This document shows positions 22,435 through 23,364 of a DNA stretch of 64,000 bases, piece by piece. Under the pieces are notes generated by a model. That model saw only the letters and a list, made by a program, of their open reading frames with translations, made no database searches and was not told the DNA's origin. The stretch is from Prochlorococcus sp. AG-418-M08 (lineage in GTDB: Bacteria > Cyanobacteriota > Cyanobacteriia > PCC-6307 > Cyanobiaceae): contig QCMG01000001.1 in the NCBI GenBank assembly GCA_003213955.1, forward strand, positions 248,001 to 312,000, read 5' to 3'. Within the stretch, counting starts at the first letter, position 1; the number at the start of each line of letters is the position of its first letter. The position numbers and the translations under genes are program-made.

Positions 22435-22483
22435 ATCTTATATGAGACATAAAACTAGTCTAATATTAATTATTATTTGAGAA
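22435..22483 (+). repeat. 49-bp composite dyad, copy 1
   Basis: Left arm ATCTTATATGAGAC (22435-22448), centre AGTCT (22457-22461, middle base 22459), right arm TTATTATTTGAGAA (22470-22483). Arm starts are 35 bp apart and the centre is exactly midway. The right arm is the most degenerate of the set (10 of 14 against GTCTTATATGAGAT). Surrounding sequence also matches copy 2 (a 65-bp ungapped stretch, about 80% identical). Confidence 0.8.
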
Positions 22484-22583
22484 AGATAATATTCATACAG
22501 AGCTATTGAATTACACATCTCTATATATTAGTAATAACAAAAGATATACTTATTAAAAAAAAGAAAGATCTGAAGTATTGCTA

Positions 22584-22632
22584 ATCTTATATAAGACTTA
22601 TTATTAGTCTTATAATAATTCTTATATGAGAG
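22584..22632 (+). repeat. 49-bp composite dyad, copy 2
   Basis: Left arm ATCTTATATAAGAC (22584-22597), centre AGTCT (22606-22610), right arm TTCTTATATGAGAG (22619-22632); arms are again 35 bp apart. Internally it can also fold as a 9-bp hairpin (TATAAGACT / AGTCTTATA, 22590-22614). It ends 45 bp before the 82-aa gene, so it may overlap that gene's promoter. Confidence 0.85.
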
Positions 22633-22677
22633 ATATGATATTCATATAAATCTACTTCATCGTTTATAATAATATGC

Positions 22678-22926
22678 ATGATAAACATCTTCGCTTTTTT
22701 AATATCCTCCGTTCTTTGGGTTCAAGTTCCTCAATGGTCTGATGATTGGTCTAAATGCGCAGTTGACGTTCCAGATTCATCATGTCATTGGTACATAACA
22801 TCCCCAGATAATACATTTGGAGAAGGTTTTGATTGGGCAAGCGCTCCATGGTTTGATGCTAATGGTTTAAGTGATGTTCCTAGTATTGAGAGAGAAACAG
22901 CACTACAGAAGCTTCAGAACAGGTAG
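22678..22926 (+). CDS. 82-aa Trp-rich secreted or anchored protein, unknown
   Basis: A short hydrophobic N-terminus (MINIFAFLISSVLWVQV) acts as a signal or anchor. The rest is an acidic, Trp-rich domain: WSDDWSKCAVDVPDSSCHWY with two Cys ten residues apart that could form a disulfide outside the cytoplasm, then GEGFDWASAPWFDANGLSDVP and a helical end. Composition differs from the neighbours (few Lys/Asn/Ile runs). I recognise no domain. Two 49-bp composite repeats lie on each side of it. Confidence 0.75.
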   Translation: MINIFAFLISSVLWVQVPQWSDDWSKCAVDVPDSSCHWYITSPDNTFGEGFDWASAPWFDANGLSDVPSIERETALQKLQNR

Positions 22927-22949
22927 TACTGTCTATAAAGCAGTGCTAC
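22923..22949 (+). terminator. possible hairpin at the 3' end of the 82-aa gene
   Basis: A 9-bp stem with one G-T pair, GTAGTACTG / CAGTGCTAC, encloses a 9-nt loop and overlaps the stop codon. No T-run follows, so it is not a classical intrinsic terminator; it may stabilise the 3' end. A 10-bp direct repeat, TCTATAAAGC, occurs in the loop (22932) and again 21 bp on (22953). Confidence 0.4.
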
Positions 22950-23049
22950 ATATCTATAAAGCCTTTAAAATAATGACTTTATAACTCATTGATTATATTT
23001 GGACATTGGTAGGACATTAAAATTTTTTATTTAAGTATAATTATTGCTC

Positions 23050-23098
23050 CTATTATATAAGAATTAATCCTAGACTACTTATGAGTCTTATATGAGAT
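23050..23098 (-). repeat. 49-bp composite dyad, copy 3 (inverted)
   Basis: Arms CTATTATATAAGAA (23050-23063) and GTCTTATATGAGAT (23085-23098), 35 bp apart, with AGACT (23072-23076) exactly central. On the reverse strand the centre reads AGTCTAGGATTAATT, matching the AGTCTAATATTAATT of copy 1, so this copy points opposite to copies 1 and 2. Confidence 0.8.
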
Positions 23099-23315
23099 AT
23101 CTAAGTCTAATTTTTTTGAGTTTAATAAGAATAATTAGTATATTGTTTATTCTTAGCTAATAAATCTAAAGAGACTTGTATTGATGAATATATAGTAAAT
23201 ATTAATTTAATCTTCATTTCCTCAAGATCATTACAAATATTTTTAATTAATTTTTAATTAGAAGTCTTATTAGCATGAATTTTATCTAATTTATAGATTT
23301 TGATAAATCTCTAAA

Positions 23316-23364
23316 ATCTTATACAAGACTAATTAATAGACTTAGGCTGTGTCTTATATAAGAC
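23316..23364 (-). repeat. 49-bp composite dyad, copy 4 (inverted)
   Basis: Arms ATCTTATACAAGAC (23316-23329) and the perfect palindrome GTCTTATATAAGAC (23351-23364), 35 bp apart, with AGACT (23338-23342) exactly central. It ends 8 bp beyond the stop codon of the RHH/J-domain gene. The AGACT centre gives it the same inverted orientation as copy 3. Confidence 0.85.

Follow-up and report, generated by a model that had tools for sequence, protein, structure and literature searches.

A conserved array of triple palindromes opposite dnaN in Prochlorococcus, a strong candidate for an end-of-replication site in cyanobacteria

The locus and its conservation

Within the stretch of DNA analysed here (64,000 nucleotides from Prochlorococcus sp. 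AG-418-M08, referred to below as 'the window'), four 49-bp units, each of them a triple palindrome, lie between the 3' ends of two convergent genes, presumably pheT on the left and a gene termed 'RHH-DnaJ' on the right; a small gene (small82) sits among the units (Table 1).

Table 1. Features of the array locus, in positions of the window
Feature	Start	End	Strand	Description
pheT (presumed)	19958	22423	+	left neighbour; presumably phenylalanyl-tRNA synthetase beta
Unit A	22435	22483		triple palindrome; right arm weak; starts 11 bp past the pheT stop codon
Unit B	22584	22632		triple palindrome; occupies the position of genus unit 3 (small82 start to pheT) and has its AGAAT arm
small82	22678	22926	+	82-aa conserved gene; no Pfam or NCBIfam match; codon-like wobble conservation
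Inverted repeat	22923	22949	+	at the stop codon of small82; resembles a terminator or processing site; conserved, as judged by eye in the consensus
Double box	23001	23017	+	GGACAT-N5-GGACAT; flanked by small82 and unit C; conserved in some members of the genus
Unit C	23050	23098		triple palindrome; one AGAAT arm; occupies the position of genus unit 2
Unit D	23316	23364		triple palindrome; position of genus unit 1; ends 8 bp short of the RHH-DnaJ stop codon
RHH-DnaJ	23373	24389	-	right neighbour, 3' end towards the array; ribbon-helix-helix-like N-terminus, C-terminal J domain with HPDAGG motif

A preliminary description of this DNA had called the four copies strictly spaced, had noticed them nowhere else in the window and had judged their register hard to obtain by chance, and each of these points held. 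In each of the four units, 35 bp separate the starts of the two arms, and an AGWCT is centred on position 25. A single 14-mer arm is found no more often than chance allows (20 matches in the window versus 17.3 expected), while the two-arm pattern with its 35-bp spacing and up to three mismatches gives seven strand-matches, every one of them at the four units, and none in 100 dinucleotide shuffles of the window. A profile based on 39 units taken from other families (19 loci of family f15 and one of family f10) scores the four window units at 41.4, 40.9, 33.2 and 32.6, against 6.0 for the next site in the window and a maximum of 21.7 among 100 simulated 64-kb sequences. This comparison is not fully blind, because f1 copies contributed to the broader profile with which the 39 units had been chosen. 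Throughout the host genome (1.66 Mb in 29 contigs), the two-arm pattern occurs at the array locus only, and a reversed-pattern control gives no match. The array is thereby confirmed as real.

The arrangement is shared by the genus. RHH-DnaJ, small82 and pheT were found together in 118 of the 150 loci examined, and exactly three units, in the same place and order, are present in 110 of these 118 genus loci, relative to most of which unit A of the window is an additional one. Past the point where the RHH-DnaJ match ends, unit 1 mostly follows after 12-15 bp and unit 2 after a median of 177 bp more, and unit 3, whose consensus retains an AGAAT arm, lies a median of 529 bp beyond that. At all eight loci from other genera (L005-L012), the nearest unit begins 12-188 bp past the matched end of RHH-DnaJ. 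The small gene is present in 22 of 22 own-genus versus none of eight other-genus loci, and its orientation is identical in 118 of 118. The exact GGACAT double box was found at 52 of the 120 genome_contigs loci listed, at none of 21 other-genus loci of the family and at one of 20 loci from other families. (The consensus of the conserved pieces was built from the 106 of 118 segments that measure 700-800 bp.)

Orthologous units are 79-83% identical between genomes and different units 70-76%, with similarity within a genome no higher than between genomes; no sign of exchange, inversion or homogenisation among the units was seen in the genus loci. Because different units are no more alike within than between genomes, each unit is conserved individually.

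Architecture of the unit

A profile of 97 hits (96 of them distinct, from 31 sequences) gives the consensus TCT-N6-AGACT-N7-AGWCT-N7-AGTCT-N6-AGA, that is, three AGWCT motifs at a spacing of 12 bp, with TCT and AGA half-sites 10 bp further out. The spacing of the arms and the centre of the unit had been described correctly at the outset, and the 12-bp spacing of the three motifs, together with the recurrence of the unit across cyanobacteria, had been overlooked. An alignment of 54 diverse copies runs ungapped over 49 columns with three dyads, with G12, G24 and C26 invariant, and the spacing within the unit is constant across loci of 32-65% GC, AT-rich Prochlorococcus included.

Variants of the outer part of the unit are seen directly at f15 loci, where in some units the outer palindrome is shifted by 8 bp, to give lengths of 57 and 65, and the 12-bp spacing of the core is unchanged. 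Hits to 57/58-nt spacing variants in a whole-genome search, together with hits in family f8 (G406, 47-nt units), are mostly weak (E about 0.003-0.5) and are assigned by their clustering. In two f15 genomes the main array is accompanied by near-identical diverged units that recur every 800-920 bp (L309:7042, 7962 and 8767; L315:4898 and 5741) and look like the product of a segmental duplication.

Full-length pairing involves 65.8% of cells versus 64.0% in shuffles; of 500 shuffles, 5 reach the covariation score of the full palindrome and 2 that of the local arms; and Rfam holds no credible match to the unit (best E 0.46). The covariance model used below (R1) served solely as a profile of dyads. 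Because compensatory pairing hardly exceeds that of shuffles, the unit is best regarded as a protein site in DNA rather than as an RNA, and each unit is a putative binding site for a multimeric protein. The original suggestion of a protein-binding array thus gains indirect support from the ungapped conservation, the three dyads, the near-shuffle pairing and the individual conservation of the units.

Distribution across cyanobacteria

The spaced pattern was found in 84 of 400 genomes of the family (65 of 68 sampled from the host's own genus and 19 of 332 others), with five of 400 in the reversed-pattern control. At E<=0.01, the covariance model matched 70 of 388 genomes of the class (43 of the own family, 24 of f15, 2 of f10 and a weak one of f24), in a scan for which about four genomes are expected by chance, the E-values are rough and four f15 units were among those used for training. 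No hit at that threshold was obtained in at least 20 own-family genomes; in these the array has diverged, has been lost or went undetected.

An exact scan of genome_contigs returned at least 120 stretches, nearly all of them from Prochlorococcus or uncultured Synechococcaceae and two from Synechococcus; exact matches were also found in Myxacorys californica and Phormidesmis priestleyi, with different neighbour genes. Filamentous Leptolyngbya-type relatives thus carry the array beside other genes. A scan of viral_contigs gave no exact match. Among the matches listed, the sites of a genome lie together at one locus, within about 1-30 kb, except in fragmented assemblies (such as G637, G485 and G441), in which they lie on two small contigs. 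In two f15 genomes (G505 and G575), units adjoin transposase-like genes (L274:17819-18961 and L295:2528-3670) that by eye are of one 380-aa kind.

The core pattern of three AGWCT motifs was also searched for across the class. Outside f1, f15 and f10, the places listed are mostly 12-bp tandem repeats, and reversed controls often score equally or higher, so that no claim is made for further families.

Chromosomal position and vesicle DNA

In 17 of 17 single-contig genomes of the family with an exact length, representing seven genera, the array lies at 0.466-0.500 of the chromosome from dnaN. This set leaves aside five genomes of rounded length, seven without an array place among the matches listed, and G009, in which no unit reaches 12 bits or more; estimates made by hand for the rounded-length genomes are about 0.49 (G374), 0.49 (G368), 0.47 (G359), 0.48 (G058) and 0.44 (G141). 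The array is a composite, conserved element that occupies one locus in its own genome and genus and stands opposite dnaN in its own family. In the f15 genomes G505 and G575 it is not opposite dnaN, its distance from that gene being 0.40 and 0.22 of the contig, respectively. The genes that surround the array keep their order within the own family, and the gene of a tyrosine recombinase discussed below also keeps a steady distance from dnaN (0.28-0.33 in 15 genomes); the antipodal position could thus be carried by synteny.

As an independent test, cumulative skew was followed in four genomes, within 400 kb centred on the array. In G575 the GC-skew maximum (5460501) and the AT-skew minimum (5467001) fall at or near the array (5454000-5462367), and in G249 the GC-skew peak (1171501) and the AT-skew minimum (1132001) lie on either side of it (about 1151400). 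Agreement is partial in G117 (GC-skew peak 966001, AT-skew minimum 845001, array about 865000), and in G505 no composition switch was found near the array. None of the four genomes displays a switch in gene-strand bias there, the window itself has no clear GC-skew flip, and skew sampled over the whole chromosomes of G575 and G505 was too noisy to read.

A separate line of evidence comes from the DNA that Prochlorococcus MED4 packs into vesicles. In the data reported for that strain, 92,377 of 1,368,548 and 186,179 of 2,729,515 vesicle-DNA reads fall within 826-832 kb, the median in random windows is 0, and the highest peak lies at a site that the authors call dif, which is taken from earlier literature and given without a sequence (PMC10913375). 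In the genome taken here as MED4 (G152), the array units occupy 828863-829611, within that 6-kb stretch of the terminus; 829 kb is also simply the midpoint of the MED4 chromosome. Vesicle production in MED4 is described as dependent on cell division (PMC11753881).

Candidate protein partners

The RHH protein encoded next to the array was the partner first proposed for it. The RHH-like start of RHH-DnaJ (with R11 and S13 invariant) has a best NCBIfam match at E 0.0012, far below the cut-off, and the J domain (E 8.1e-06) falls just below that of Pfam. AlphaFold models the protein poorly (mean pLDDT 66.9); against the PDB there is no match at E<=0.001, and J-domain chains lead with a probability of up to 0.99. 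By its domains, the fusion of an RHH-like and a J domain is of a DNA-binding co-chaperone type. In a search of 194 genomes, the full-length protein is confined to the own family (21 genomes), the J-domain part alone occurs in six more, and no match was found in f15 or f10. This distribution rules out RHH-DnaJ as the general binder of the array, since arrays are present in f15 and f10; because full-length matches are restricted to the own family, it is at most a local partner.

A second candidate is a divergent but strongly conserved family of tyrosine recombinases of about 390 aa (L353-L358; G000:C7:63821-64978), which carries the motifs GLRNHE, TTKTG, PYDLRHAWA, GHSV and TYH. Its mean column identity is 66% between picocyanobacteria and filamentous relatives, and its scores with the NCBIfam models that it matches all fall far short of the cut-off (36.2 bits at best, against a cut-off of 220). 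All 64 own-family genomes listed have a match to the family (with one stop within the match in at least five, namely G058, G089, G141, G147 and G174), as do many other cyanobacteria. At E<=1e-20 it is found in 288 of 388 genomes, paralogs included, and is therefore far commoner than detectable arrays, whereas three array-bearing genomes of one genus (G496, G534 and G682) and the draft G441 have weak matches without a strong ortholog. A phylogenetic profile is for these reasons not discriminating, and an obligatory partnership was rejected as a conclusion to be drawn from it.

In G534 the array (302847-302977) lies 476 bp from another recombinase match (303453-303938), as judged by coordinates only; with five recombinase matches in 5.53 Mb and about two dozen array-bearing genomes, roughly 0.05 such cases are expected by chance, and the proximity is suggestive only. 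Further hints of this kind come from G505, where the array has degenerate recombinase fragments at a distance of about 1.6 kb, and from one contig of G637, where an integrase match lies 1 kb from a weak unit.

FtsK/SpoIIIE (PF01580) was matched in none of 14 own-family genomes. Among eight array-positive f15 genomes, a long FtsK match was found in G534 only, the others having none or fragments of at most 26.6 bits; FtsK is present in G569 and G522, two f15 genomes with weak arrays.

Interpretation and alternatives

Taken together, these results describe a new, deeply conserved and probably protein-bound element of the chromosome terminus, and the array is a strong candidate for a hitherto unrecognised end-of-replication site of these cyanobacteria. 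The explanation favoured here, with reasonable though by no means full confidence, is that each 49-bp unit would be occupied by a symmetric, multimeric DNA-binding protein, and that the units of a locus, which number from 2 to about 7, would together form a nucleoprotein complex at the place where replication ends. Such a complex might hold or process the two sister termini during the last step of replication and segregation, without FtsK, a tyrosine recombinase being its likeliest catalytic partner; the array would then perform the task that dif/Xer, Ter/Tus or matS/MatP perform elsewhere. Protein binding, a role in termination or segregation and the link to a recombinase are all inferred. 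Because inversions and deletions between units are missing, the units are better seen as binding sites than as freely active crossover sites, unless their synapsis is topologically gated, as it is in plasmid resolution systems.

A more ambitious version of this explanation is offered tentatively, as a possibility that may well prove wrong. It holds that the array could be the missing, FtsK-independent, multi-unit counterpart of dif or ter in cyanobacteria, that it might predate the split between marine picocyanobacteria and Leptolyngbya-type filaments, that it may be served by the cyanobacterial tyrosine recombinase (replaced in G534 by the one adjacent to the array), and that it might be the source of the terminus DNA packed into vesicles at division.

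The functions originally proposed for the array were an operator, a partition or nucleoid-organising site, and a mobile palindromic element. Of these, a role in chromosome management (of the partition or nucleoid-organising type) fits best because the array lies at the terminus, and the other two are not sustained by the evidence set out below.

Among the alternatives, a replication fork trap, in which a terminator protein would bind the units and make them polar or bipolar barriers, survives best and is nevertheless unlikely. The position at the terminus and the presence of several copies would suit such a trap, as would the asymmetry that the AGAAT arm lends to the unit 3 consensus and the DNA-binding-like domain encoded by the neighbouring gene in the own family; however, the units are near-symmetric, and that neighbour, RHH-DnaJ, has no match in f15 or f10.

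It is less likely still that the array is an operator, or another regulatory element, of RHH-DnaJ or small82. The short distance from RHH-DnaJ to the nearest unit, at all eight other-genus loci and at nearly all of those in the own genus, is what might be expected of a site that serves this gene, but the array abuts the 3' end of RHH-DnaJ and not its promoter, between genes that converge; moreover, small82 was not found at the eight other-genus loci, and f15 and f10 have arrays while full-length RHH-DnaJ is restricted to the own family.

The notion of a mobile or selfish palindromic element, or of an attachment site for mobile elements, is very improbable. The few genomes with extra units, the transposase-like genes that adjoin some of the f15 arrays and the integrase match near a weak unit in G637 could be read in its favour; against it stand the single locus in the host genome, the same order of units at 118 own-genus loci, the separate identities that the units keep and the lack of any exact copy in viral_contigs. 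Least probable of all are RNA or transcription-terminator hairpins between the convergent genes, for which the palindromic, intergenic nature of the units and the small excess of covariation might speak, and against which stand the near-shuffle pairing, the Rfam result and the constant spacing over a wide range of GC content.

Relation to known terminus systems

A survey that succeeded for 578 of 592 single-chromosome organisms predicted no dif in any of five cyanobacteria (PMC3025954); a genome paper likewise states that none is predicted in cyanobacteria, which leaves it uncertain what their Xer proteins do, for a strain that does have FtsK (PMC6416890), and a further paper states that S. 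elongatus has no recognizable ter sites (PMC10269773). The array bears on how Prochlorococcus, described as outnumbering every other photosynthetic organism in marine ecosystems (PMC11753881), ends replication and separates its sister chromosomes, apparently without FtsK. No description of the array was found in the open-licence literature. The array offers a small, defined DNA target for the study of chromosome termination in Prochlorococcus, as well as a place to ask why so much of the DNA in vesicles comes from the terminus.

Several known systems resemble the array in part. In the MatP system, the matS sites are single palindromes of 13 bp (GTGACRNYGTCAC) that are scattered over the Ter domain, and MatP itself has an RHH-type DNA-binding fold. 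Short palindromes that mark the terminus region are common to both systems; in contrast to matS, however, the array consists of composite units with a different consensus at one locus of its own genome, and its neighbouring RHH gene is not conserved with it. In B. subtilis and E. coli, Ter sites are bound by RTP dimers and by Tus, respectively. These fork traps also place multiple protein sites at the terminus, as the array would, but differ from it in sequence and symmetry.

A dif site measures 28 bp, with two arms of about 11 bp around a centre of 6-8 bp, whereas the array has units of 49-65 bp with three dyads and thus another architecture; dif is a single site per chromosome, at the terminus, and the array has one locus opposite dnaN in the own family, with three units at 110 of 118 genus loci; dif is activated by FtsK, for which 14 own-family genomes gave no match; and the array units bear no traces of recombination with each other. 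A terminus location, a palindromic form and the presence of a conserved tyrosine recombinase are what the array has in common with dif/XerCD, the single-recombinase systems difSL/XerS and difH/XerH and the archaeal XerA/dif system, and the peak of vesicle DNA at its site in MED4 resembles the peak reported at dif in E. coli in the same vesicle study (PMC10913375).
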